From: Spartobacteria bacterium
GTDB lineage: Bacteria; Verrucomicrobiota; Verrucomicrobiia; Chthoniobacterales; UBA10450
NCBI GenBank assembly: GCA_003167555.1
Contig: PMSN01000006.1
Span: forward strand, 1-64,000
Direction: 5' to 3'
DNA: 64,000 bases
Below are positions 4,952-20,322 of this stretch, piece after piece (the first letter of the stretch is position 1; each line of letters begins with the position of its first letter). The position numbers and the translations under genes were made by a program. Below the pieces are notes generated by a model that made no database searches, was not told where the DNA came from, and saw only the letters and a program-made list of their open reading frames with translations.

Positions 4952-7375
4952 ATGTTATTATCCAGTCTTCGCTTCGCCGGTCGTTCGCTCGCGCGCAGCC
5001 CCGGGTTCACCCTCCTCGCCATCATCACGCTTGGGCTCGGCATCGGCGCCAACACCGCCATGTTCAGCGCCGTCAATGCGATCCTGCTCAAGCCGCTGCC
5101 TTATCCCGACAGCGCGCAGTTGGATCGCATCGACCGTGCGACGCCACAAAATCCGCAAGGTCGCGTTTCGCCGGCTGACTTCCTCGATCTGCGGCGGGAG
5201 GCCAGCCGCTATGGTGAGATCGGCGCTTATGCGCTCGGCGACACGAGCCTCTCGGAACCCGGCCAACCGGCCGAAATGGTCCAGGCCCTTCGCACCACCT
5301 CCAATTTCTTTTCCACGCTCCGAGTCCAACCGCAGCTCGGCCGCGACTTCCTGCCCCGGGAGGATCTCCCTGGGAACGATCGCGTTGTTCTCATCAGTCA
5401 ACGTTGCTGGCAGCAGCGCTTTGGGGGCAGAACTGACGTCATCGGCCGCACCATCCGCGTCGATGGCGAGCCGCACGAGATCGTGGGCGTGCTGCCCGCG
5501 TCGTTAAACGACTGGCGGCACCTCGGCGCGATCGATTTCTTCCGGCCGCTTGCTCTCGACCAACAGAAATCCGCCGACCGCCGCAGCACCATTCTCCGGC
5601 TAATTGGTCGTCGCTCCGATAAACTCTCGGGCGCTGAGGCCGCAGGCTTTATCGCCAACTTCGGCGCGCGCCTCGCGACCGACTTTCCCGAGGTAAACGC
5701 CGGCAGCACCTGGCGCACCGTCCCGCTCAACAGCACCGTAATGTCGAAGAATGGTCCCGGTGTAATGGCGATGCTTATTGGCCTCTCCGGTTTCGTCTTG
5801 CTCATCGGCTGCTCGAATCTGGCAAACCTTCTCCTCGCCCGGACGATGGCCCGCGCCCGCGAGTTCGCGGTGCGTTCGGCCCTCGGCGCCTCGCGCATCC
5901 AGTTACTCCGCCCGTTGATTGCCGAGTCGCTCTTGCTGGCTTTCGCCGGCGGGCTCTGCGCCATTCTCGTCGCGCAGTGGTTCGCCGAGTGGCTCGCTGT
6001 TCGATCCACTGGAGAAAATGGCGAAAGCGTCGTGCTCGCGCTCGACTGGCGTGTGCTCGGCTGGGCCCTCGCTGCTTCGCTCGTCACAGCTGTCGCCTTC
6101 GGTCTCGCGCCGGCGCTCTTCGCGATGCGGCTCAACGTAAACGACACGCTCAAGAGCGGCGCGCGCGGCATGACTGGAGGCCGCGGTCATCAACGCTTTC
6201 GCCACGGACTCATCATCGGTCAGTTTGCTCTCGCCATGGTGTTGCTCGCGGGCGCCGCGCTCTACATCCGCGGTCTCGATGAGTTGAGTAACACTCGCGA
6301 CGGCTGGCAATCCGCGCACCTCGTTACTGGAACCGTTGTGCTTCCCGCGGCCAGCTACGGCGACGCCGACAAGATCGCCAGCTTCCATCGCCTCACGCTG
6401 GAACGGTTACAGTCCGTGCCCGGCGTCACTTCCGTCAGCATCTCGTCCTTCACGCCCTTCTTCAATTGGGCTGACGTCCGCAAGTATCTGGTCGAAGGTC
6501 GCGAGCTACCTCAACCCGGCCACGAACCGGCCGCGATCGTTAACAGCATCAGTCCACTTTATTTCGACACCTACCAGACACGTGTGCTCGCCGGCCGCGC
6601 CTTTAACGAACGCGATACTCTGACCTCCTCGAAGGTTTTCATCATCAGTCAGGCCATGGCTACGGGACTGTTTGGGAACGATAACCCGATCGGTCGCCGC
6701 GTCGCTCAAACTGGGATCGGCAATCTGCAATGGGGCGAAATTGTCGGCGTCGCGGCCGACATAAAAACGGTCATGCCGGACCCGGGACCAGTAACCTTCC
6801 AACTCTACCAGCCGATGGCTCAGGACCCGCGGCCCTACAACGAGATCGCCCTGCGCACGACCGGCGTCGCGCCTTCTACCCTCGTCCCTGCCATCCGCAA
6901 CGTCATGACAGAACTCGACCCGGACTTGCCGGTGCGCCAGCTCCAGGCTGCCGACGTGACGATTGATCGCGCCAACTACCAAAGCGCCGTCCTGCGCGAC
7001 ATGCTTACCTCGTTTGCGGTGCTCGGGCTCGCCCTTGCCTCGTTAGGTATCTACGGTGTCATCGCCCGTACGATGGCGCAACGTGCCGGCGAATTTGCGA
7101 TTCGCTTCGCGTTAGGTGCGTGCATCCGGGACATCACCCGCATTGTCCTGATTTCCGGTGTGAAACTCGCGCTCGTCGGATCAGTCCTGGGTCTGCTCGG
7201 TGCACTCGCCATTTCCCGATTCCTTGCTTCCAGTAACCCCGGCATGCATTTCAACAGTCCTCCCATCTTGATCGGCACGACGCTCCTGCTCATCACCGTT
7301 GCCCTGGTTGCCTGCTGGCTTCCCGCCCGCCGCGCTGCCCGCATCAATCCCATCGAGGCTCTCCGCGCGGAGTAA
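4952..7375 (+). CDS. MacB-like FtsX-domain permease, ADOP family
   Basis: The length of 807 residues matches 'acidobacterial duplicated orphan permeases'. The N-terminus RSLARSPGFTLLAIITLGLGIGANTAMFSAVNAILLKPLPYP is diagnostic of the family. It consists of TM1, a MacB periplasmic core (about residues 50-235), an FtsX three-helix domain (about 265-400), then a second TM plus core (about 420-660) and a second FtsX domain (about 680-800) ending in PARRAARINPIEALRAE. No ATPase is fused. Such proteins are thought to work with a separate MacB/LolD-type ATPase; whether the upstream ATPase serves this role is unknown. Confidence 0.9.
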   Translation: MLLSSLRFAGRSLARSPGFTLLAIITLGLGIGANTAMFSAVNAILLKPLPYPDSAQLDRIDRATPQNPQGRVSPADFLDLRREASRYGEIGAYALGDTSLSEPGQPAEMVQALRTTSNFFSTLRVQPQLGRDFLPREDLPGNDRVVLISQRCWQQRFGGRTDVIGRTIRVDGEPHEIVGVLPASLNDWRHLGAIDFFRPLALDQQKSADRRSTILRLIGRRSDKLSGAEAAGFIANFGARLATDFPEVNAGSTWRTVPLNSTVMSKNGPGVMAMLIGLSGFVLLIGCSNLANLLLARTMARAREFAVRSALGASRIQLLRPLIAESLLLAFAGGLCAILVAQWFAEWLAVRSTGENGESVVLALDWRVLGWALAASLVTAVAFGLAPALFAMRLNVNDTLKSGARGMTGGRGHQRFRHGLIIGQFALAMVLLAGAALYIRGLDELSNTRDGWQSAHLVTGTVVLPAASYGDADKIASFHRLTLERLQSVPGVTSVSISSFTPFFNWADVRKYLVEGRELPQPGHEPAAIVNSISPLYFDTYQTRVLAGRAFNERDTLTSSKVFIISQAMATGLFGNDNPIGRRVAQTGIGNLQWGEIVGVAADIKTVMPDPGPVTFQLYQPMAQDPRPYNEIALRTTGVAPSTLVPAIRNVMTELDPDLPVRQLQAADVTIDRANYQSAVLRDMLTSFAVLGLALASLGIYGVIARTMAQRAGEFAIRFALGACIRDITRIVLISGVKLALVGSVLGLLGALAISRFLASSNPGMHFNSPPILIGTTLLLITVALVACWLPARRAARINPIEALRAE

Positions 7376-7868: not shown

Positions 7869-8531
7869 GTGTTCGAGAAAATCGAAATCATTCGCAGGCT
7901 GCTGGGCACTCTCGTGGTGGCCATCGGTTCCTTGGGTTGCGCGCTTCAGTTGTATCGGTTCTCTCGCGGCAAGACGAGGCCGGTGCCTGTCATCACCCTG
8001 GTTATTATCGGATCGACCGCTTTGGTTACCGGTCTGCAATTCGTTTTTCCTGAAGTTCTCACCGCGCTTCGACGCAATCGAGAGGCATTACTGGCGGGAG
8101 AGTGGTGGCGAATGGTGACGCCGCTCTTTGTGCATGCCTACGGCTGGTGGCATGCTTGCGTCAATGGCGTTGCGGCGATCATATTTTGCCCGCTGGCGGA
8201 AAGACTTTATGGGAAAAAGTTGTGGGCCCTCTATTTTATTCCCGGAGTGGTTGGCCAGATTTTCGGTTACTTGTGGAGCCCGAACACGGCCGGGTCATCG
8301 TTGGGCATCGCCGGAGTGATGGGAGGGTTGTTCGCCTTCGTCGTTTTGCATTGTCGAGAGCTTTCGGGGTCGGCGCCGCTATTTGCCATGTGTGGTATTG
8401 CAGGTGCCGTCGCTTTGTGTTTCTGGCGCGACATTCATGGTCCGCCAACCGTTCTCGGAATTCTGCTGGCGGGCCTAATGATAAAGTTGGAGGGGCGTGA
8501 ACGAACAACGATGGAAGGAGCAGGCTATTGA
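7869..8531 (+). CDS. Rhomboid-fold membrane protein, catalytic serine missing (pseudoprotease)
   Basis: This is a 220-residue rhomboid-family protein with a GTG start four bases after the previous stop. Rhomboid hallmarks are visible: EWWRMVTPLFVHAYGWWHACVNGVAAI (the 'WR..t..F.H....H...N' helix 2 motif) and SSLGIAGVMGGLFAF in helix 4. In active proteases the latter reads GASG with the nucleophilic Ser; here residue 148 is Ala (GIAG). A helix-6 histidine (DIHGPP) remains. Compare the second rhomboid at 18267-18872, which keeps GASGG. It is therefore probably an inactive, iRhom/derlin-like member that binds membrane proteins without cleaving them. Confidence 0.75.
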   Translation: MFEKIEIIRRLLGTLVVAIGSLGCALQLYRFSRGKTRPVPVITLVIIGSTALVTGLQFVFPEVLTALRRNREALLAGEWWRMVTPLFVHAYGWWHACVNGVAAIIFCPLAERLYGKKLWALYFIPGVVGQIFGYLWSPNTAGSSLGIAGVMGGLFAFVVLHCRELSGSAPLFAMCGIAGAVALCFWRDIHGPPTVLGILLAGLMIKLEGRERTTMEGAGY

Positions 8532-10067: not shown

Positions 10068-10796
10068 ATGAGCACAGTTGTAATGACGAAACGGATTGCA
10101 GAAGCGTCGCCGCGTTTCAAGGCCAGGATGGCTGGCGTCTCCTATTTGCTCGGAAGCCTGACGTCAGTTTTTGGCCAAATGGTCGTTCTCGGCATGCTCG
10201 TTGTGCCCGCCAGCGCAACCGCGACAGCGGCCAACATCCTCTCGCACGAGTCTCTATTTCGGCTAGGGTTCGTGGCTTCCATCATGACTGTGCCGTTCCA
10301 TCTCATTTGGGCGGTTCTCTTCTATGGTCTCTTTAAGCCGGTCAATAGGAGCGTCTCGTTACTCGCTGGGTTTGTCATGCTCCTGGGATGCGCGATGTGG
10401 GCCCTTAGTAGTCTTTTTCACCTCGCCCCCTTGCTCGTCCTGCAAGGCAAGAGCTCCTTGGGCGCATTTGCGCCTGAACAGTTGCAGGCTCTGGCGCTCA
10501 TGCTGGTCAAATTGAATGCGCAGGCCTACGACATCGGCCTGGTGTTCTTCGGATTCTGGTGTGTCCTGATCGGCTACCTCATTTTCAGGTCAACCTTCCT
10601 GCCTCGAATTATTGGTGTGCTGGAGGTGCTTGCCGGATTGGGTTACCTGACTCTTCTGTGGCGGCCGCTCGCACACTCTCTGTATCCCTACAACCTCGCC
10701 CTCGCCGGCCCCGGGGAAATATCACTGATGCTGTGGCTCCTCGTGAAGGGTGTGAACGATCAACGATGGAAGGAGCAAGCCTCGTTAAGTATATGA
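10068..10796 (+). CDS. DUF4386 membrane protein (array member 1)
   Basis: This is a 242-residue membrane protein with about six helices. The family signature is the first helix after RFKARMAGVSYLLGS, followed by VPASATATAANILSHESLFRLGF, the conserved loop before helix 2. AAGGAG at 10053-10058 is a good ribosome binding site. The stop overlaps the next start (ATGA at 10793-10796), coupling it to MDR-A. DUF4386 has no proven function. It is the first of five paralogs within 6 kb. Confidence 0.85.
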   Translation: MSTVVMTKRIAEASPRFKARMAGVSYLLGSLTSVFGQMVVLGMLVVPASATATAANILSHESLFRLGFVASIMTVPFHLIWAVLFYGLFKPVNRSVSLLAGFVMLLGCAMWALSSLFHLAPLLVLQGKSSLGAFAPEQLQALALMLVKLNAQAYDIGLVFFGFWCVLIGYLIFRSTFLPRIIGVLEVLAGLGYLTLLWRPLAHSLYPYNLALAGPGEISLMLWLLVKGVNDQRWKEQASLSI

Positions 10797-11908
10797 AAAT
10801 AAAACGAATACTAAAGTGGAGTGCGCGTGCGATTTTGGTCGCGCTAATATTGACCTTCCTGTGGGGGTTTATCGCCTACTGGAGGTCGACGAACGACTGT
10901 GATCGCAAGACCGGCGCTCCGGCAAATCCTGTGAAAGCCATCGTTCATTGTGAGTATGGGGGACCCGAAGTTCTTACCCTGGCGGACGTTGAAAAGCCGG
11001 TTCCGAATGACAATCAACTCCTAGTCAAAGTTCGGGCGGCCTCCCTGAATCCACTCGACCTCACTATCCGAGGTCCGTGGCTGATCCGCCCGATCTTAGG
11101 AATGCGCAAACCAAAAGACACTCGGCTAGGCGTCGACTATGCGGGGACTGTTGAAGCAGTCGGCAAAAATGTAACCCAGTTCAAACCTGGCGACGAGGTG
11201 TTCGGCGGCACAAACGGGGCCTTGGCCGAATATCTGTGCGTCCGGCCCGATCGCGCAGTCACGCTCAAACCCGCGAACATGACGTTTGAGCAAGCGGCTG
11301 CTGTTCCCGTAGCGGCTATCACCGCTCTGCAAGGTCTTCGCGACAAAGGAAAGATTAAGCCTGGCCAGAAAGTCCTGATCAATGGCGCCTCGGGAGGCGT
11401 TGGGACTTTCGCGGTCCAGATAGCGAAATCCTTCGGGACGGAAGTGACCGGCGTGTGTAGCACGCGAAATCTCGACATGGTTCGATCAATCGGCGCAGAT
11501 CACGTGATCGACTACACGAAAGAGGATTTCACCAAGACCGATCAACGATACGATCTGATCTTTGACCTTGTCGGGAACCATTCGTTTTCCGAGCGTCGGC
11601 GGATTCTGAATCCAAATGGCATCTGTGTCATGGCCGGGGCTGGAGGAGCAGGGTGGCACGACGGTATCGTCACGGCCCTGGTTGGTGAACTTAACGCTTA
11701 TGTGGGGTCTTGGTTCGTGAGCCAGAGGTTCCTCGCGTATATTTCCAGTTTTAACAAACCGGACATGGCTATCCTCGGTGACCTCATGCGGGATGGAAAG
11801 ATGACCCCAGTTATCGACAAGACCTATAAATTGAGCGACGTCCAGGCTGCTCTCACGTATCTGGAAACGGGACACGCTCGAGGAAAAGTAGTGATAACTG
11901 TGGACTAA
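10793..11908 (+). CDS. Membrane-anchored MDR-family NAD(P)-dependent oxidoreductase (MDR-A)
   Basis: This 371-residue protein has an N-terminal transmembrane anchor (residues about 10-30, ARAILVALILTFLWGFIAYW) and a short linker. From about residue 44 there is a quinone-oxidoreductase-like medium-chain dehydrogenase: the GroES-like part contains LGVDYAGTVEAVGKNV, and the Rossmann motif is NGASGGVGTFAVQIAK. The zinc-binding residues of classical alcohol dehydrogenases are absent, so it is expected to reduce carbonyl, enone or quinone substrates with NADPH. The anchor would place the catalytic domain at the membrane. It is a near-duplicate of MDR-B. Confidence 0.85.
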   Translation: MKIKRILKWSARAILVALILTFLWGFIAYWRSTNDCDRKTGAPANPVKAIVHCEYGGPEVLTLADVEKPVPNDNQLLVKVRAASLNPLDLTIRGPWLIRPILGMRKPKDTRLGVDYAGTVEAVGKNVTQFKPGDEVFGGTNGALAEYLCVRPDRAVTLKPANMTFEQAAAVPVAAITALQGLRDKGKIKPGQKVLINGASGGVGTFAVQIAKSFGTEVTGVCSTRNLDMVRSIGADHVIDYTKEDFTKTDQRYDLIFDLVGNHSFSERRRILNPNGICVMAGAGGAGWHDGIVTALVGELNAYVGSWFVSQRFLAYISSFNKPDMAILGDLMRDGKMTPVIDKTYKLSDVQAALTYLETGHARGKVVITVD

Positions 11909-11941
11909 CACCAAAGCCAACTACATGGGCGGAGAGAAAAT

Positions 11942-12658
11942 ATGAACTCGATTAAGAAACAAGCACGAATCGCGGGATTCTGGTACCTACTGCTCGGAAT
12001 CTCCGCCTCTATTGGCCTTACGATCCCCAGCGAAATCATGGTGCCTGGGGACGCAACCGCGACGGCCGATCACGTTCGAGCTTCCGAGACCCTTCTCCGT
12101 ATGGGCATCGGGAGCGAACTATTCTATCAGATCATTGCCATTTTCTTAGTTCTGGCTCTTTATCGCTTGTTCAAAGCGGTCAGCGAAAAACAGGCGGTCC
12201 TGATGGTGATTTTGGGCGCTCTGGTCTCGGCTCCGATCGTATTTGTCAATGTCCTCAACGAGATCGCCGCGCTGATCCTTGTCGGTAGTGCCAACTTCCT
12301 ATCGGTATTCGATAGACATCAGCTGGATGCCTTAGCCTACCTGTTCCTCCGTTTGCACAGCCAGGGAATTGTCGTTGCCGCAATCTTCTGGGGGCTTTGG
12401 CTATTTCCGTTCGGCATTCTTATTATTCGATCGGGCTTCATTCCGCGCTTCCTGGGTTACTTGCTGTTCATGGCGGGTTCCGGCTATCTGGCCAGTTCCT
12501 TCACCGCCCTCGTTCTGCCATCGTACCGGCCTCTGGTTGACCAGTTCGCGACGCGCCTGACGATGGCGGAACTGCCGATAATCTTTTGGCTCTTGATCTG
12601 GGGTGCGAAGGATCAATCGCGAAAAGAGCAACCGACGGATGCGGTCGCGCCCGCATAG
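11942..12658 (+). CDS. DUF4386 membrane protein (array member 2)
   Basis: This 238-residue protein begins MNSIKKQARIAGFWYLLLG, a start shared with members 4 and 5. The loop VPGDATATADHVRASETLLRMGIG is followed by about five more helices and ends in a short basic tail. It lies between MDR-A and MDR-B on the same strand with gaps of 33 and 24 bases, so the pair DUF4386-MDR is repeated twice in tandem. Confidence 0.85.
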   Translation: MNSIKKQARIAGFWYLLLGISASIGLTIPSEIMVPGDATATADHVRASETLLRMGIGSELFYQIIAIFLVLALYRLFKAVSEKQAVLMVILGALVSAPIVFVNVLNEIAALILVGSANFLSVFDRHQLDALAYLFLRLHSQGIVVAAIFWGLWLFPFGILIIRSGFIPRFLGYLLFMAGSGYLASSFTALVLPSYRPLVDQFATRLTMAELPIIFWLLIWGAKDQSRKEQPTDAVAPA

Positions 12659-12682
12659 CTGATCTTATGGTTCGTTACACCT

Positions 12683-13798
12683 ATGAAAATAAAACGAATA
12701 CTAAAGTGGAGTACACGCGCGATTTTGGTCGCGTTAGTATTGACGTTCCTGGTGGGGTTCATCGCTTACTGGAAATCGACTAATGACTGTGATCGCAACA
12801 CCGGTGCTCCGGCAAATCCTATGAAAGCTATCGTTCATTGCGAGTATGGGGGACCCGAAGTTCTTAAGCTGGTAGATGTTGAGAAGCCGACTCCGACAGA
12901 CAACCAGGTCCTGGTCAGAGTTCGCGCGGCCTCCCTGAATCCGCTGGACCTCACCATTCGCGGCCCGTGGCTCGTGCGCCCGATCTTGGGAATGCGTAAA
13001 CCAAAAGACACCCGGCTGGGTGTTGACTATGCGGGGACAGTCGAAGCAGTCGGCAAGAACGTAACTCAATTCAAACTCGGCGATGAGGTGTTCGGTGGGA
13101 CACGCGGGGCCTTGGCCGAATATGTGTGCGTTTTGCCCGATCGCGCACTCACGCTCAAACCCGCGAACATGACGTTTGAGCAAGCGGCGGCTGTTCCCGT
13201 GGCGGCTATCACCGCTTTGCAAGGTCTTCGCGATAAGGGAAAGATTAAGCCTGGCCAGAAGGTCCTGATCAATGGCGCCTCGGGAGGCGTGGGCACCTTT
13301 GCGGTGCAGATCGCGAAATCCTTCGGGACCGAAGTGACCGGCGTATGTAGCACGCGAAATCTCGACCTGGTCCGGTCAATCGGTGCAGATCGCGTGATCG
13401 ATTACACGAAGGAAGATTTCACCAAGACTGATCAACGCTATGATCTGATCTTTGACCTTGTCGGGAACCATTCGCGCTCAGAACGTCAGTGGATCTTGAA
13501 TCCAAATGGCATCTGTGTTCTGGCCGGGATCGGAGGATCAGGACAACACCCGGAAACGTGGGGGCGTTTGGTTGGGAATCTAAAAGTCGCTCTGTTGTCG
13601 CGGTTCATTGACCAGAAGTTCGTCATGTTGATGGCGAAACTGAACAACGAGGATTTGACCATCCTAAGCGACCTCATGCGCGCCGGAAAGGTGACACCGG
13701 TCATCGACAGGACCTACCCGTTGCGCGAGGTCCCTGACTCCATCCGCTATCTGGAAACTGGCCACGCTCGTGGCAAAGTAGTAATCACAGTCGAATGA
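12683..13798 (+). CDS. Membrane-anchored MDR-family NAD(P)-dependent oxidoreductase (MDR-B)
   Basis: It has 371 residues, the same length and architecture as MDR-A, and its first 30 nucleotides are identical to MDR-A. The Rossmann stretch is also almost unchanged. The main divergence is at about residues 285-345 (GIGGSGQHPETWGRLVGNLKVALLSRF), the substrate/lid region, which suggests different substrates after a recent duplication. The stop overlaps the next DUF4386 start (ATGA at 13795-13798), as for the first pair. Confidence 0.85.
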   Translation: MKIKRILKWSTRAILVALVLTFLVGFIAYWKSTNDCDRNTGAPANPMKAIVHCEYGGPEVLKLVDVEKPTPTDNQVLVRVRAASLNPLDLTIRGPWLVRPILGMRKPKDTRLGVDYAGTVEAVGKNVTQFKLGDEVFGGTRGALAEYVCVLPDRALTLKPANMTFEQAAAVPVAAITALQGLRDKGKIKPGQKVLINGASGGVGTFAVQIAKSFGTEVTGVCSTRNLDLVRSIGADRVIDYTKEDFTKTDQRYDLIFDLVGNHSRSERQWILNPNGICVLAGIGGSGQHPETWGRLVGNLKVALLSRFIDQKFVMLMAKLNNEDLTILSDLMRAGKVTPVIDRTYPLREVPDSIRYLETGHARGKVVITVE

Positions 13799-14574
13799 CA
13801 CTGCACACAGTAGAGCCGGCCCAACAGACAGCCGCCAAAGTCGCGGGGGTTAGTTCCATAATCGCAATGGCGATCGTCGTGTTCGCTAACTATGGGCTAT
13901 TAAACCCTCTTATTGTCCCGGGCAATACTGCGGAAACCGCTCGGAACATCGTGGCGCACGAACGCGCGCTGCGCATTGCCGTCACCTGCTTTCTCATTTA
14001 CAGCGCAAGCGTTGTTGTTCTTCTCGCCGCGCTCTACGTGATTCTTAAACCGGTAAATCGGGGCCTCGCCCTGGTTGCGGCACTCTTCCGCCTGGTCTTC
14101 GCCTTGTTGTGGCTTCTTACGGCGCTCAATCTGCTGGGTGCGCTGCGGCTCCTGGGCAGCGCGAGTTACTTGCAAGTCTTCGAGCCAGAGCGATTGCAGG
14201 CCCTGTCCAGGCTCGGCCTCGCCTCGAATTTCGACGATTATTACGTCGGCCTGCCGTTCTTCGCATTGGCCTCCACGGTTTGCAGCTACCTGTGGTTGAA
14301 GTCGAAATACATCCCAAAGGGATTGGCCGCGTTCGGCGTGATCTCATCTGCGTGGTGCGTGTTGTGCGCTTTCGTTTTCCTCATTTTTCCCGGCTTCGGC
14401 AAGCCGGTCGATCCGTACTGGTTCGATTCGCCGATGGCCATATTCGAACTAGTCCTGAGCGTCTGGCTTCTGTTTAAGGGATTAAAGCCGGGCTCGTCCT
14501 GTAGGGCGTCTGTGTCAGACGCCGGATCAGATAGCTCGCCGTCTCACAGAGACGGCCTACAATTCCCGGATTGA
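13795..14574 (+). CDS. DUF4386 membrane protein (array member 3), tail encoded by a dispersed repeat
   Basis: This 259-residue membrane protein has its signature loop as VPGNTAETARNIVAHERALRIAV. It is the most divergent member and lacks the MNS-KKQ start. The last 25 or so codons (SCRASVSDAGSDSSPSHRDGLQFPD) are read out of a palindromic intergenic repeat at 14501-14560 that recurs at 18932-18991. The native C-terminus was therefore probably lost or extended by repeat insertion. Confidence 0.8.
   Translation: MTLHTVEPAQQTAAKVAGVSSIIAMAIVVFANYGLLNPLIVPGNTAETARNIVAHERALRIAVTCFLIYSASVVVLLAALYVILKPVNRGLALVAALFRLVFALLWLLTALNLLGALRLLGSASYLQVFEPERLQALSRLGLASNFDDYYVGLPFFALASTVCSYLWLKSKYIPKGLAAFGVISSAWCVLCAFVFLIFPGFGKPVDPYWFDSPMAIFELVLSVWLLFKGLKPGSSCRASVSDAGSDSSPSHRDGLQFPD
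14501..14560. repeat. Palindromic dispersed repeat, type C copy 1 (GTAGGGCG...CCTAC)
   Basis: The element starts GTAGGGCGTCTGTGTCAGAC and ends GACGGCCTAC. Its arms pair imperfectly around GCCGTCTC/GAGACGGC. A related copy is at 18932-18991. Here it lies inside the 3' end of a coding region. Confidence 0.65.
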
Positions 14575-14585
14575 GAACAGACGAT

Positions 14586-15296
14586 ATGAACTCACTGAAG
14601 AAACAAGCACGCTTCGCGGCAATGCTCTATTTCTTAAACGCCCTCCCTGCCCCGTTCGCGCTCCTGTATGTCCCCAGCGTGCTCATGGTTCGAGGAGACG
14701 CAACGGCTACGGCTCACAATGTCCGCGATTCCGAGGCTCTTCTTCGGCTTGGCATGGCCGGCGAACTGTTTTCTTCGACGGTCTGCATTTTTGCCGTCCT
14801 GGCTTTTTACCGCCTGTTCAAGGCGGTGAGTGGGAAACATGCGATGGCCATGGCGATCCTGCTTCTGATCTCGGTCCCTATCTCGTATCTCAACGTGCTC
14901 AACGATCTCGCCGCGCTCACCTGCGCCCGCGGCCCTGAGTTCCTTGCCGTCTTCGATCAACCTCAGCGAGACGCCTTCGTCTTGTTCTTCCTCCGCTTAC
15001 ACAACCAGGGATTTATCCTCGCCCAAATCTTCTGGGGACTTTGGCTGTTTCCCTTCGGCATCCTGATCATGCGCTCCGGTTTTATCCCTCGCTTCCTGGG
15101 CATCAGCGTGATCGTGGCCGGTTGCGGCTACGTGATCAGTTCGTGTGCCACCCTGTTTCTCCCCGGATATGCCGCCACCATTAGTCAGTTCGCGATGATT
15201 CTCGAAATGGGCGAATTGCCGCTCGTCTGGATGTTGATCTGGGGTGCAAAGGAACCTCCGGCGAATCACCCACGCCTCCATCCGGCCCCAGCCTGA
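14586..15296 (+). CDS. DUF4386 membrane protein (array member 4)
   Basis: It has 236 residues from ATG 14586 (MNSLKKQARFAAMLYFLNA). A TTG at 14571 would add five residues but lacks family support. The loop VRGDATATAHNVRDSEALLRLGMAG and about six helices are present. It is most similar to member 2 over its whole length, for example FWGLWLFPFGILIMRSGFIPRFLG. It follows member 3 within 11 bases. Confidence 0.85.
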   Translation: MNSLKKQARFAAMLYFLNALPAPFALLYVPSVLMVRGDATATAHNVRDSEALLRLGMAGELFSSTVCIFAVLAFYRLFKAVSGKHAMAMAILLLISVPISYLNVLNDLAALTCARGPEFLAVFDQPQRDAFVLFFLRLHNQGFILAQIFWGLWLFPFGILIMRSGFIPRFLGISVIVAGCGYVISSCATLFLPGYAATISQFAMILEMGELPLVWMLIWGAKEPPANHPRLHPAPA

Positions 15297-15331
15297 TAAC
15301 TTCTTCCCGACTCGCGACGCAAAGGACAGAC

Positions 15332-16039
15332 ATGAACTCAATCAAGAAACAAGGAAGACTTGCAGGTTTACTGTGGTTTTTGTGCGCGCTGACAGGAGGA
15401 TTTGGCCTGATCTACATTCGGTCCAACGTCCTCGTGCCGGGAGATGCAGCGGCGACGGCCGCTCATATCGTGGCTTCTGAGTTCTTGTTCCGTGCGGCGA
15501 TCGTAGGTAATCTTCTCTCGCAGGTCTTCCTGTTCTTCTTCGGATTGACCCTCTTCCATTTGTTTAAGGAGGTTGATAGGAAGCTGGCGATGGTCGTTTT
15601 AGGCTCGGTCATGCTGACCGTCGGCATAGCGGTCGTTAATAATCTGAATTCGTTTGGAGCCCTGGTCGTGTTGAGCCAGGCTGATTACTTGAAAGTGTTC
15701 AGTCCTGAGCAACTCCATGCCGTGGCCATGTTTTTTCTCAGGATGGGCAACAGTTTTGGACAAGGACTCCTGGAGATATTCTGGACACCGTACTTCTTTG
15801 CCTTCGGGTTACTTGTTATCAAGTCCAGGTTCCTTCCGAAGATCCTGGGCATTCTCTTGCTGATCATGAGTATCGGCTACGCGGCCAATATCCTGACGAA
15901 AGTTCTCGTCCCCCAGTTTTACCCAGCGTTCTTCACCGAGCTGGCGATGTCGCTCGGCGCTCTCGGTGGAATTCCGACGATGCTTTGGCTCCTGATCATG
16001 GGGGCGAAAGATCAACCATTGGTCGACCGAGCCTCGTGA
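15332..16039 (+). CDS. DUF4386 membrane protein (array member 5)
   Basis: This 235-residue protein begins MNSIKKQGRLAGLLWFLCA. The family loop is VPGDAAATAAHIVASEFLFRAAIVG, and helices continue to a terminal helix ending in MLWLLIMGAKDQ. The C-terminal 'LLIxGAKDQ' motif is common to members 2, 4 and 5. It is the last DUF4386 in the array, 27 bases before a smaller four-helix protein. Confidence 0.85.
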   Translation: MNSIKKQGRLAGLLWFLCALTGGFGLIYIRSNVLVPGDAAATAAHIVASEFLFRAAIVGNLLSQVFLFFFGLTLFHLFKEVDRKLAMVVLGSVMLTVGIAVVNNLNSFGALVVLSQADYLKVFSPEQLHAVAMFFLRMGNSFGQGLLEIFWTPYFFAFGLLVIKSRFLPKILGILLLIMSIGYAANILTKVLVPQFYPAFFTELAMSLGALGGIPTMLWLLIMGAKDQPLVDRAS

Positions 16040-16066
16040 TCGCGATATGCTTACCGCCTAACGATT

Positions 16067-16579
16067 ATGGAACCGGGTGAAGCACTCAGCACCGCGTCGC
16101 AACTGGCCATGGCGCTGGCGGGATTTGCTGGCGTGGTCGTCGCCTTCCGCAGCGGCGCGTTGCATGAATGGGCGCCGACCGACAAGTTGCGGCTCCGGCT
16201 TTTGTTGAGCAATTCAGTGGTGCCACTGCTTGCCTGCCTCATCGCCATGTTGCTCCTAAGTGTGAAACCGCCTCCGCCATGGATCTGGCGCGCGTGCAGC
16301 GGTCTCTCGCTCGCTCTGATGGTGCCGTTCGGCCTGTCGACGATGAAAGGCGTGCGTGCGATCCAGTCTGGCGGATTGAGCATAGTCGGCACATCGCGGT
16401 TGCTCTTGCATGGGCTCGGGATTCTTGCGCTAGTCGCAACGCTTCTCCAAGTTTACAACGTTGTGGCTCTCAATGCGTTTTGGGCGTTCTTCGCCACGAT
16501 CGTCGTACAGCTTGTAGCCGGCATCCTCCAGTTCGTTCGACTCATTCTTCTGCCGTTACGCCAAACGAGTGATCGTTAG
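16067..16579 (+). CDS. Hypothetical four-helix membrane protein
   Basis: This 170-residue protein starts MEPGEALSTASQLAMALAGFAGVVVAFRSG. Four hydrophobic helices are predicted (about 10-28, 45-65, 78-98 and 108-155 as a pair). No known domain is recognised. It stands between DUF4386 member 5 and MDR-C, 18 bases before the latter, and is probably transcribed with the array. Confidence 0.65.
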   Translation: MEPGEALSTASQLAMALAGFAGVVVAFRSGALHEWAPTDKLRLRLLLSNSVVPLLACLIAMLLLSVKPPPPWIWRACSGLSLALMVPFGLSTMKGVRAIQSGGLSIVGTSRLLLHGLGILALVATLLQVYNVVALNAFWAFFATIVVQLVAGILQFVRLILLPLRQTSDR

Positions 16580-16597
16580 ATCATCAATCCCCGTTTT

Positions 16598-18103
16598 ATG
16601 AAAACACACCTACAACTCCTCATCACTACATTCTTCACGGCTGCGCTTTTGTTTGCAGGCGCAGCGCTGGCCCAAACACCGAGTCCGAGCGGCGGCCCAC
16701 GGATGAAAGCCATTGTTTATCACAACTTTGGTTCACCCGATGTCCTTCAGCTTGAAGAGATCGAAAAGCCTGTTCCCAATGACAATCAAGTCCTGGTAAA
16801 AGTTCAGGCGGTTTCAGTTAATCCCTTCGACTGGCATTTCATGGAAGGCGTGCCCTACATCGCTCGGCTCCTGGCGTTCGGGCCCCTCAAACCAACGTCA
16901 CCACGGCTGGGCGCTGACTTTGCCGGAACGGTCGAAGCGGTCGGCAAGAACATCACCCAGTTCAAGCCAGGCGATGAAGTATTCGGCGGGAAAATCGGGG
17001 CCTACGCCGAGTATGTGGTTATCGCGGAGAAATTCCTGGCCACGAAGCCGGCCAATATCACGTTCGAGCAGGCGGGGTCTGTCCAAATTGCCGGGCTTAC
17101 CGCATTGCAGGGCCTTCGCGACAAGGGAAAGATTCAGCCCGGCCAGAAGGTTTTGATCAACGGCGCGTCGGGAGGCGTGGGCACGTTCGCGGTGCAAATC
17201 GCCAAGTCACTCGGCGCGCATGTGACGGGCGTGTGCAGTGGGAGGAACGTGGAATTGGTCCGCTCGCTCGGCGCCGATCAGGTCATTGATTACACCAAGG
17301 AAGATTTCACCAAGAGTGGGCAACGTTACGATGTGATTATCGACAACGTTGGGAACCACTCGCTCTCAGAATACAGGCGCGTTTTGAATCCCAACGGGAA
17401 ATACGTCTTGATCGGAGGCGGAGGAGTAAACGACAACCGCTGGACTGGTCCGATCGGTGTGGTCATCAAGACGTTGCTGTTGAAACCGTTCATCAGCCAG
17501 GAGATGAAGATGATGCTGGCGGACGTGAACAAAGAAGACCTGACTTTCCTGGCCGATCTCATGCAGTCGGGAAAAGTGACGCCGGTTATCGACAAGACTT
17601 ACCCGCTTAGTGAAATTCGTGAGGCTATCCGGTATGTGGAAACCGGGCGCGCTCGCGGCAAAGTCGCCGTTACCTTGAAAGATGCGAGCCAGACCTCCCT
17701 GGCCGGTGGCAATTCCGCAACGGCTTCTGGAAGCACGATCGGACCCGTTCTCGTTGTTTTTGTGCTTATCGGCGTCCCTCTTGCCGTGCTCATTTTGCCA
17801 GTTGTCGTCGCGTTCATTCTGAATGGTCGTTTTCGGCAGCGCAATCCAGACAAGCGGGGCTACAGATGGGGTTACTACTTTAGCGTCATGTCGTTCGTCG
17901 CCGGCCTTGTTCTTGGCGTCTTCCTAGAATGCGGCGCCATGGCCGTGATCGTCTGCGGTGTCGTTTACGCAGTCCTCGCCTGGTTCTTCGCCAAGCGTCA
18001 CCGCTGGGCTTGGGTCGCGCTCACGATTCTCAGCTTCAATCCGATAGCGTGGATCATCAATCTTATCTACCTATGGAGGCGTTGGGCGGAGGCCGCGACG
18101 TAA
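16598..18103 (+). CDS. MDR-family oxidoreductase with N-terminal signal sequence and C-terminal membrane domain (MDR-C)
   Basis: This 501-residue protein is the third MDR of the array. The N-terminus (LLITTFFTAALLFAGAALAQTPSP) looks like a cleavable signal peptide rather than the plain anchor of MDR-A/B. The MDR core (about residues 36-362) keeps the NGASGGVGTFAVQIAK Rossmann motif and the 'VIDYTKEDFTK' segment shared with the paralogs. A Thr/Ser linker then leads to about 120 residues with four hydrophobic helices. A putatively exported NAD(P)H enzyme is odd, because the periplasm lacks NADPH. Either the signal is an uncleaved anchor or the cofactor is different. Confidence 0.8.
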   Translation: MKTHLQLLITTFFTAALLFAGAALAQTPSPSGGPRMKAIVYHNFGSPDVLQLEEIEKPVPNDNQVLVKVQAVSVNPFDWHFMEGVPYIARLLAFGPLKPTSPRLGADFAGTVEAVGKNITQFKPGDEVFGGKIGAYAEYVVIAEKFLATKPANITFEQAGSVQIAGLTALQGLRDKGKIQPGQKVLINGASGGVGTFAVQIAKSLGAHVTGVCSGRNVELVRSLGADQVIDYTKEDFTKSGQRYDVIIDNVGNHSLSEYRRVLNPNGKYVLIGGGGVNDNRWTGPIGVVIKTLLLKPFISQEMKMMLADVNKEDLTFLADLMQSGKVTPVIDKTYPLSEIREAIRYVETGRARGKVAVTLKDASQTSLAGGNSATASGSTIGPVLVVFVLIGVPLAVLILPVVVAFILNGRFRQRNPDKRGYRWGYYFSVMSFVAGLVLGVFLECGAMAVIVCGVVYAVLAWFFAKRHRWAWVALTILSFNPIAWIINLIYLWRRWAEAAT

Positions 18104-18266
18104 AGGATGAAAGATGAAAGATGAAATGAGAGCCGCACTTGCCCTCGCCAAGCGTGGCTGATCTTTGATTCACTCATGCCATTCGTTCACCCTTCGGGCT
18201 TTCCGTCTATGTCACAGCTTGCCAGTCCATTCCATTCTCGTTAGGCGTCGGTCATACTCAAGTTCA

Positions 18267-18872
18267 ATGCGCACTTATCTTGGATCGGCAGGCATCTTCT
18301 GCGTTATGAGCGCTGCGTTCCTCCTCGAGCTTGCGACCAATGCGGTCGGAAATGATGCAGGGCTCCTTGACCTCGGTGCTCTCCCCGACAGCGGTCAGAT
18401 TCATCACGAATATTGGCGTCTGCTCACGGCCGGGTTCTTGCATTACGATCTTACACATATCGTGCTCAATACCCTCCTGTTGCTCTTGGTTGGACCCGTT
18501 GTAGAGCGCCGCGTCGGAACCGCGTGGCTCCTCGCCATTTTTCTGGGCGGATCGGTGGCGAGCTGCGCGGGGATTCTCGCGAAACATCTTCTCTGGCCTT
18601 CGCAGGGCGTCTCGCTCGGCGCGTCGGGCGGACTATTTGCCCTTCTGGGGACCGGGCTCGTGTTGGTCTTCACGCTTCCCTCACAAAGTCGCTTGGTTCG
18701 AATCCGGCTCATGGTCCCGCTCGTCGTGGGATTAGTCTACTCAGTGTTACCGCGCGTTGCTATGATTGGGCACATCGTCGGCTTGGTTGTCGGGACCGCA
18801 ATTGCGCTCGCGCTCCCTTTGGATGCGGTCTCGCCAATGGTCCCCGGTGCTCATGACTTGAGTTCCAGATGA
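18267..18872 (+). CDS. Rhomboid family intramembrane serine protease
   Basis: This 201-residue protein starts at ATG 18267; an upstream in-frame extension to 18165 has no membrane or family support. Helix 2 has EYWRLLTAGFLHYDLTHIVLNTLLL (WR, H, H...N). Helix 4 has GVSLGASGGLFALLG with nucleophile Ser120, and helix 6 has IGHIVGLVVG with His169, so the catalytic dyad is intact. It would cleave transmembrane substrates within the membrane. It is of the compact six-helix type. Confidence 0.85.
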   Translation: MRTYLGSAGIFCVMSAAFLLELATNAVGNDAGLLDLGALPDSGQIHHEYWRLLTAGFLHYDLTHIVLNTLLLLLVGPVVERRVGTAWLLAIFLGGSVASCAGILAKHLLWPSQGVSLGASGGLFALLGTGLVLVFTLPSQSRLVRIRLMVPLVVGLVYSVLPRVAMIGHIVGLVVGTAIALALPLDAVSPMVPGAHDLSSR

Positions 18873-18991: not shown

Positions 18992-19005
18992 CAATTTTTG
19001 GATTG

Positions 19006-20322
19006 ATGAAAAAATTGCTGAGACAATCGTTCCACAAGCTTGTCGACGTAAAGCCGGACGAAATCCGCGCGATGTGGCTTGGATTCGCTTTCCATTTTCT
19101 CATCCTGACCGGTTACTACATCCTCCGGCCGATTCGCGACAGCATCGCCGCCGGCAATCGCTTGGAAACGTTGCCCTGGATGTTCGGCGCCACCCTCGTC
19201 GCGATGTTGATCGCGAATGTTCTTTTCGCCGCCATCGTCGCGCGCATGTCGCGGCGAAAATTCATTCCGCTGGCCTACGCATTTTTCATTTTCAATCTCG
19301 CGCTTTTCTTCGTCCTGATGCGGACCGGTTCGCCGGAGCAGCAAGTCTGGATTGGACGGGCGCTCTACGTCTGGGTCAGCGTCTTCAATTTGTTCAACAC
19401 CGCGATTTTCTGGGCGTTCATGACGGATCTGTTCACGGTCGAACAGGGAAAACGACTCTATGGCTTCATCGCCGTAGGCGGATCGCTCGGAGGGATTCTG
19501 GGGCCATTCATCACGGCGCGCTATGTCCGCGATGTCGGGCCGGCGAATCTGCTGGCGATTTCCGCTGTCATGTTCGCGATCGCCGGAGCGCTGGTTCGAC
19601 TCTTTCCGAACAATTTCACGGAGCGAAACAAACCGGATCGGGGCGGCGAAGAACCGATCGGTGGATCGATTTGGTCAGGCGTCACCCATATCGTTCGATC
19701 ACCTTACCTTCTCGGGCTCGCCGCCTCGATGCTTCTTTACACGAGCACCTCGACCTGGGCCTACTTTCAACAATCCGACCTGACGCGCTCCGCATTAGCC
19801 GACAGCGGCGCGCGCACCGTTTTTCTGGCGCACCTGGACATTTGGGTTAACTCCATCACCGTCGTCATTCAGATTTTCCTTACCGGACGATTGCTCAAGT
19901 GGTTCGGGGTCGGATTTACGCTCGTCGCGCTGCCTATCATCAGCATGATTGGTTTCGCCGCCATGGGCGTGGCCACGAGCCTGGCCTTGCTCGCTGTCTT
20001 TCAAGTCGCGCGCCGGGTGGCCGCCTACGCGCTGATGCGGCCTTCGCGCGAGATCTTGTTCACGGTCTTGCGCCGCGAAGACAAGTACAAGGTCAAAAGC
20101 GTTACCGATACTCTCGGTTACCGGGCCGGCGACCAACTGGGCGCGTGGTCCTACGGCGGTCTGCACACGCTGGGCCTGGACCTCTCCAGCATCAGCTTTG
20201 TCGCCGTTCCTGTGATAGCTGGATGGTGCGCCCTCTGTCTCTGGTTGGGCCGCCGCCAGGTCGCGCTTGCTGGCGCACCCGCGAAACAAGATGCGCCGGC
20301 CCCTGACGCGCAGCGCTCCTAG
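19006..20322 (+). CDS. MFS-like / nucleotide-carrier-like membrane transporter
   Basis: This 438-residue protein has about twelve hydrophobic helices. The N-terminal KPDEIRAMWLGFAFHFLILTGYYILRPIRDSIA is typical of Verrucomicrobial and proteobacterial MFS proteins distantly related to the TlcA/Npt ADP/ATP carriers. Between the halves is the conserved LFTVEQGKRLYGFIAVGGSLGGILGP. The soluble loop LFTVLRREDKYKVKSVTDTLGYRAGDQLGAW before the last helices is also diagnostic. The substrate is unknown. Broken copies of this gene occur at 27162-27287 and 28780-29994. Confidence 0.8.
   Translation: MKKLLRQSFHKLVDVKPDEIRAMWLGFAFHFLILTGYYILRPIRDSIAAGNRLETLPWMFGATLVAMLIANVLFAAIVARMSRRKFIPLAYAFFIFNLALFFVLMRTGSPEQQVWIGRALYVWVSVFNLFNTAIFWAFMTDLFTVEQGKRLYGFIAVGGSLGGILGPFITARYVRDVGPANLLAISAVMFAIAGALVRLFPNNFTERNKPDRGGEEPIGGSIWSGVTHIVRSPYLLGLAASMLLYTSTSTWAYFQQSDLTRSALADSGARTVFLAHLDIWVNSITVVIQIFLTGRLLKWFGVGFTLVALPIISMIGFAAMGVATSLALLAVFQVARRVAAYALMRPSREILFTVLRREDKYKVKSVTDTLGYRAGDQLGAWSYGGLHTLGLDLSSISFVAVPVIAGWCALCLWLGRRQVALAGAPAKQDAPAPDAQRS

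Follow-up and report, generated by a model that had tools for sequence, protein, structure and literature searches.

Genes for DUF4386 membrane proteins and for MDR reductases are genetically coupled across several bacterial phyla, and in one genome the two are fused in frame. The best reading of this coupling, together with the fold models, is that DUF4386 would serve, within the membrane, as partner to an MDR that reduces lipophilic enones or quinones with NADPH. We give an even chance to the view that the two proteins form a two-component membrane reductase module, and we infer the role of DUF4386 for the MDR as well as the physical contact, the substrate class, and the direction of such a module. 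The coupling, which an initial annotation had inferred from the window (the whole 64,000-nucleotide stretch analyzed here, from a Spartobacteria bacterium), is real and wider than the window alone could show. It provides the first concrete lead to a partner of DUF4386, as the same two families are adjacent in unrelated phyla and once fused. With a statistically firm partner enzyme, a fusion, and a confident fold model, this family of several phyla becomes part of a testable two-protein system.

Organization of the Array

In the window, a single run of nine genes on the + strand (10068–18103, in the order D1-A-D2-B-D3-D4-D5-4TM-C) is made of five DUF4386 genes (D1–D5), three MDR reductases (A, B, and C), and one hydrophobic protein:

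10068..10796, +, DUF4386-1 (D1), 242-aa six-helix membrane protein; PF14329, 155 bits; AlphaFold2 pLDDT 93.9
10793..11908, +, MDR-A, 371 aa, 4-nt ATGA overlap with D1; PF08240, PF00107, and PF13602 above cut-off
11942..12658, +, DUF4386-2 (D2), 238 aa; PF14329, 148 bits; 56.6% identical to D4
12683..13798, +, MDR-B, 371 aa, A-like over residues 1–280; MDR domains above cut-off
13795..14574, +, DUF4386-3 (D3), 259 aa, 4-nt ATGA overlap with MDR-B; PF14329, 140 bits
14586..15296, +, DUF4386-4 (D4), 236 aa from ATG; PF14329, 136 bits
15332..16039, +, DUF4386-5 (D5), 235 aa; PF14329, 120 bits
16067..16579, +, 170-aa hydrophobic protein, the "4TM" of the initial annotation; no Pfam match
16598..18103, +, MDR-C, 501 aa; PF13602, 114 bits; hydropathy

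The gene order, the single strand, and the two ATGA overlaps first described for this locus matched exactly on re-check. In array order, the junctions measure −4, 33, 24, −4, 11, 35, 27, and 18 nt; the 4-nt overlaps lie at D1/A (10793) and B/D3 (13795), and the remaining gaps span 11–35 nt. Because all junctions fall between −4 and +35 nt on a single strand, the run from D1 to MDR-C may be read as one operon. D4 has an alternative upstream start, a TTG at 14571, which would make it overlap D3.

All five DUF4386 proteins are clear full-length members of the family, with PF14329 scores of 120–155 bits, where the Pfam cut-off is 27.6, and profile coverage from position 1 or 2 to 210. A PF14329 search of the whole 4.2 Mb genome found five DUF4386 genes, every one inside the array, and the genome's top three PF13602 matches are MDR-A, MDR-B, and MDR-C, which argues that the array is beyond chance. 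The 170-aa hydrophobic protein had no Pfam hit at E values up to 0.5 and has a relative at just one further locus (L025, 82%). The window belongs to a Verrucomicrobia genome of the Chthoniobacterales type, and the loci nearest to it come from Spartobacteria and Candidatus Udaeobacter MAGs.

Rhomboid-family proteins are encoded on both sides of the array (7869–8531 and 18165–18872). A MacB/FtsX-type permease lies at 4952–7375; in L014, L016, L021, L022, and L044, relatives of this permease precede the DUF4386-MDR array. The MFS-like protein at 19003–20322 carries a TLC ATP/ADP-transporter match (32.1 bits vs. a 21-bit Pfam cut-off), which is unusual in a presumably free-living soil bacterium.

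Linkage of DUF4386 and MDR Genes in Other Genomes

Searching outward from the MDR, DUF4386 was found within a few kb at most verrucomicrobial loci, and also near the MDR in Litorilinea and Anaerolineaceae (Chloroflexota), one Ignavibacteriales genome, and two Neobacillus, a count that is biased because these loci were selected by similarity to the MDR. When loci were instead picked by the DUF4386 Pfam family alone (121 chloroflexotan, 199 bacillotan, and 149 actinobacterial genomes), an MDR lay within about 1.5 kb of DUF4386 at 3 of 29 chloroflexotan, 1 of 8 bacillotan, and 11 of 29 actinobacterial loci. Thirty actinobacterial genomes, chosen by DUF4386 alone, were then searched for PF13602: at least 19 of 55 DUF4386 clusters had an MDR within 2 kb, where 0.51 would be expected from MDR density. 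Linkage in Actinomycetota is thus about 37 times the density expectation, as calculated from these at least 19 linked clusters, and 18 of the 19 linked MDRs counted lie on the same strand as DUF4386; the corresponding Poisson value (1e-23) is too small because some of the 30 genomes are related. No family recurred to a comparable extent among 127 other DUF4386 neighbors, the commonest being GerE, with 5. The initial annotation had proposed this count of adjacency across genomes and had held that finding the two families unlinked elsewhere would speak against its idea; they are linked in Actinomycetota, as well as in Chloroflexota and Bacillota, and joined in one fusion. We conclude that the genetic coupling of DUF4386 and MDR is general across phyla.

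Outside Verrucomicrobia, DUF4386 precedes the MDR in 15 cases and follows it in 9, some of these loci being overlapping stretches of one place. In Chloroflexota, the two genes overlap by 4 nt at both L062 and L118, and in Actinomycetota they do so by 1 nt at L163. In L062 (Litorilinea), a second, partial DUF4386 (11306–11566) follows the MDR, so that the order DUF4386-MDR-DUF4386 occurs in Chloroflexota as well. The pair is not obligate, since about two-thirds of actinobacterial and nine-tenths of chloroflexotan DUF4386 loci have no adjoining MDR, and some anchored MDRs (L013, L018, and all those of Proteobacteria) have no DUF4386 within the examined flanks; the neighbors of the proteobacterial ones share no common family.

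At L014:11146–13395, DUF4386 continues in frame into an MDR-C ortholog, giving a 750-aa protein with no intervening stop (L001 is identical there). The carrier is one Verrucomicrobia genome of the same genus as the window genome, and because the fusion is known from this single genome it might stem from an accident of assembly or a frameshift, though the reading frame runs cleanly across the two parts. Topologically, the fusion makes sense, as the predicted C-in orientation of DUF4386 puts its C-terminus on the membrane side where the MDR signal segment would begin. In a mixed alignment of the fusion with separate rows, the DUF4386 rows were misaligned, with 12–20% identity to the fusion.

Fold and Conservation of DUF4386

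The AlphaFold2 model of D1 (pLDDT 93.9, pTM 0.89) is built of six long helices, the first two of which are separated by a short one, and the loop charges predict an N-in/C-in orientation. Among 119 sequences from several phyla, the top-conserved positions include G23, S175, P179, E217, W223, and G228, and the best-conserved ones are mostly turned toward the cytoplasmic face. In the verrucomicrobial members, Y86 and, close to the outer face, T53, N56, and R65 are conserved in addition, though this subset also consists of closer kin.

The absence of a known function, as first annotated, agrees with the open-access full-text literature (5.4 million papers), in which we found no function, solved structure, or paper for DUF4386. 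A PDB sequence search gave no relative, Foldseek comparison of the model with solved structures gave nothing that reached E 0.001, and a second fold comparison returned helical-bundle scores only, with no confident solved match. VIA matches to b561, Dcytb, and STEAP extended over most of the model, with Z values of 6.8–7.5 that are inside helical-bundle noise according to the comparison tool's own note. The conserved heme-ligand histidines that mark the cytochrome b561/STEAP group are missing, as no column of the 119 sequences exceeds 40% His.

MDR Reductases and Their Nearest Relatives

Scores above cut-off for ADH_N and ADH_zinc_N_2, along with a Rossmann nucleotide motif, place MDR-A, B, and C in the MDR superfamily. 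In every anchored MDR, the GxxGGVG motif is complete, as GASGGVG or GATGGVG, with full conservation of the NADPH motif and of the active-site residues. For all three window MDRs, the top NCBIfam match is TIGR02824 (PIG3-type NAD(P)H quinone oxidoreductases), but the scores of 175–179 bits are under the cut-off of 296.8, which excludes them from this subfamily. The MDR-A model (pLDDT 90.8) has its best structural matches in a Coxiella quinone oxidoreductase (3tqh), ceQORH (5a3j), and RTN4IP1 (2vn8), and the sequence relatives of MDR-A agree with these matches.

The chloroplast envelope protein ceQORH, which shares with the window MDR its fold and about 30% identity (E 4e-32), has no activity toward quinones; its substrates are long-chain gamma-ketols, which it reduces at the envelope membrane (PMC5343027). 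Membrane association, NADPH dependence, and a lipophilic long-chain substrate are features that the window MDRs may have in common with it, whereas ceQORH is peripheral, has no transmembrane anchor, and has no described DUF4386 partner. RTN4IP1/OPA10, which serves coenzyme Q synthesis as an NADPH oxidoreductase (PMC10830421), has the MDR fold, 32–33% identity, and the NADPH motif, and may resemble the window MDRs in its quinone-linked biology as well; it differs by its location in the mitochondrial matrix and by its partner, which is COQ3 in coenzyme Q synthesis and not DUF4386. By proximity in both fold and sequence, the MDRs of the array would fit near ceQORH/RTN4IP1-like reductases of lipophilic enones or quinones.

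Membrane Side of the Anchored MDRs

MDR-A has an N-terminal anchor (residues ~11–31), a linker with Cys36, and an MDR domain that starts at residue 47 and contains Cys53. MDR-C, which lacks this cysteine pair, has a Sec-type signal peptide (ALA|QTP), the MDR domain, and, past a Ser/Gly/Ala-rich linker, C-terminal membrane segments (~386–490, from hydropathy) whose hydrophobic stretches surround a basic loop. The anchored MDRs fall into a single clade (99% support) of Chthoniobacterales and of proteobacterial members without DUF4386 nearby, which also takes in four unanchored and weakly placed chloroflexotan MDRs. Those linked to DUF4386 in Chloroflexota, Bacillota, and Actinomycetota are unanchored and look cytosolic, so the anchor is dispensable for the association; the initial description of the partners as anchored dehydrogenases applies in the Verrucomicrobia/Proteobacteria clade only.

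Lys and Arg are in excess before the anchor helix as compared with after it in 67 of 70 N-termini (means 4.4 vs. 1.0), the pattern of an N-in/C-out anchor, which would put the MDR domain outside the membrane. A Tat signal was rejected, as none of the 70 N-termini matches a strict or loose motif. One Cys follows the anchor helix (STNDC; SAC in Proteobacteria) and a second lies within the domain's first strand (HCEYG; YRCYG): of 67 anchored MDRs, 58 have both, 9 have neither, and none has one alone, L001 having been scored by eye as lacking the linker Cys, since its Cys sits inside the signal helix. On the tree, four changes are seen for either trait, and a sister-pair sign test of the correlation had 3 independent pairs (p 0.25), too few for significance. 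The Cys-bearing linker has a pLDDT of 62 in the MDR-A model. These outward-pointing charges and cysteines were absent from the initial annotation.

Together, the charge bias, the cysteine pair, and the Sec-type signal peptide and C-terminal membrane segments of MDR-C suggest that the anchored domain probably lies on the outer face of the membrane. Such a location is at odds with the conserved Cys149 and Cys222, which in the periplasm would remain unpaired thiols, and it poses a puzzle, in that an exported MDR would be without NADPH, yet the NADPH site is intact. If the anchored MDRs do face the periplasm, they would constitute an exported lineage within a classical family of NADPH-dependent enzymes, no periplasmic MDR having been found in the literature searched, and the source of reductant would become the question. 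NADP enzymes of the glucose-fructose oxidoreductase type are exported via Tat with bound NADP; they are comparable as dinucleotide-dependent enzymes outside the cytoplasm and differ from the anchored MDRs by their use of Tat.

Proposed Role of DUF4386 and Alternative Explanations

In the membrane, the six-helix DUF4386 would most likely bind or hand over a lipid-soluble carbonyl, either a quinone or an enone/enal from oxidized lipids, which the MDR would reduce with NADPH. In Chthoniobacterales, the MDRs of the tandem array would have gained a membrane anchor, their domain being, judging from the charge pattern and the co-varying cysteine pair, on the outer face and probably disulfide-closed. 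Gene coupling across phyla, the clean fusion, the 4-nt and 1-nt overlaps, relatives with lipophilic substrates, an intact GxxGGVG, the N-in/C-in orientation of DUF4386, and the chimeric MDR-B discussed below all argue for a two-component module. Against it stand the non-obligate pairing, with DUF4386 found without MDR and anchored MDRs without DUF4386, and the unanchored MDRs of other phyla, which fit badly with one fixed contact side. What had been proposed at first, a membrane partner for anchored dehydrogenases, is thus supported in its functional link (about 37-fold linkage and the fusion), with a lipophilic chemistry that would fit the nearest solved relatives, but not in the generality of the anchor; export by DUF4386, the other suggestion made at first, may play a part.

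The frequent yet non-obligate linkage, its variable order (15 vs. 9), and a six-helix protein with conserved E217, S175, P179, and R180 would also suit a transporter, importing or exporting the MDR's substrate or product within one detoxification or catabolic pathway and forming no complex with it. We regard this as unlikely, because the fusion and the 4-nt overlaps suggest closer contact; the fold comparisons also brought up no conspicuous resemblance to a known transporter, which is weak evidence in the same direction. Mere gene neighborhood, arising from horizontal transfer islands or tandem duplication with no shared function, might explain why array copy number varies and why decayed DUF4386 fragments occur in L033, L038, G010, and G030; it was already disfavored and is very improbable given that linkage recurs in several phyla, on the same strand, with short spacing, and far above density. 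Least probable of all is a b561/STEAP-type electron carrier feeding an exported MDR: the fold matches that evoke it are within helical-bundle noise and no conserved heme-ligand His accompanies them.

A further alternative concerns the membrane side alone and is compatible with the pairing of DUF4386 and MDR in a module. The anchored MDRs might face the cytoplasm, where NADPH is normally available, the cysteine pair being a redox switch or incidental. The fully kept NADPH motif and active-site residues, the cytosolic appearance of DUF4386-linked MDRs in other phyla, and the retained free cysteines make this a serious though doubtful possibility, as it leaves aside the positive-inside bias (67 of 70), the signal peptide and C-terminal segments of MDR-C, and the presence or absence of the two cysteines in concert. 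Quite improbable is the more elaborate idea of extracytoplasmic, disulfide-stapled, NADPH-dependent MDRs to which DUF4386 would supply cofactor or electrons across the membrane, a system that would be without described counterpart.

Evolution of the Array

MDR-A and MDR-B share the same first 30 nt and are 81.9% identical. Identity reaches 92% over residues 46–280, and nucleotide identity drops to 53–55% over residues 281–320. Because the lid of MDR-B (281–325) comes closest to a different paralog clade (L017, L025, L039, and L021), and because MDR-A is as close to its orthologs in other genomes as to MDR-B, MDR-B looks like a gene-conversion chimera carrying the lid of another paralog, which would explain the common 5' end together with the diverged lid. 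The initial view of the two genes as recent duplicates had captured both features and was too simple as to the origin of the lid.

Pairwise identities of 23–57% among D1–D5 argue against a recent duplication of DUF4386-MDR pairs as units, and the D1-A pair is retained in other genomes (L014 and L021). In Chthoniobacterales, arrays consist of 1–5 DUF4386 and 1–4 MDR genes in tandem, and the MDR paralogs keep a common core and differ in their substrate lid, as if the array covered several substrates. Judging from the chimeric lid of MDR-B, tandem arrays may diversify their substrate range through gene conversion. It seems that DUF4386 copies degenerate and the MDRs are retained; broken DUF4386 remnants are found beside MDRs at L033:7196–7450, L038:8156–8728, G010:C110, and G030:C237.
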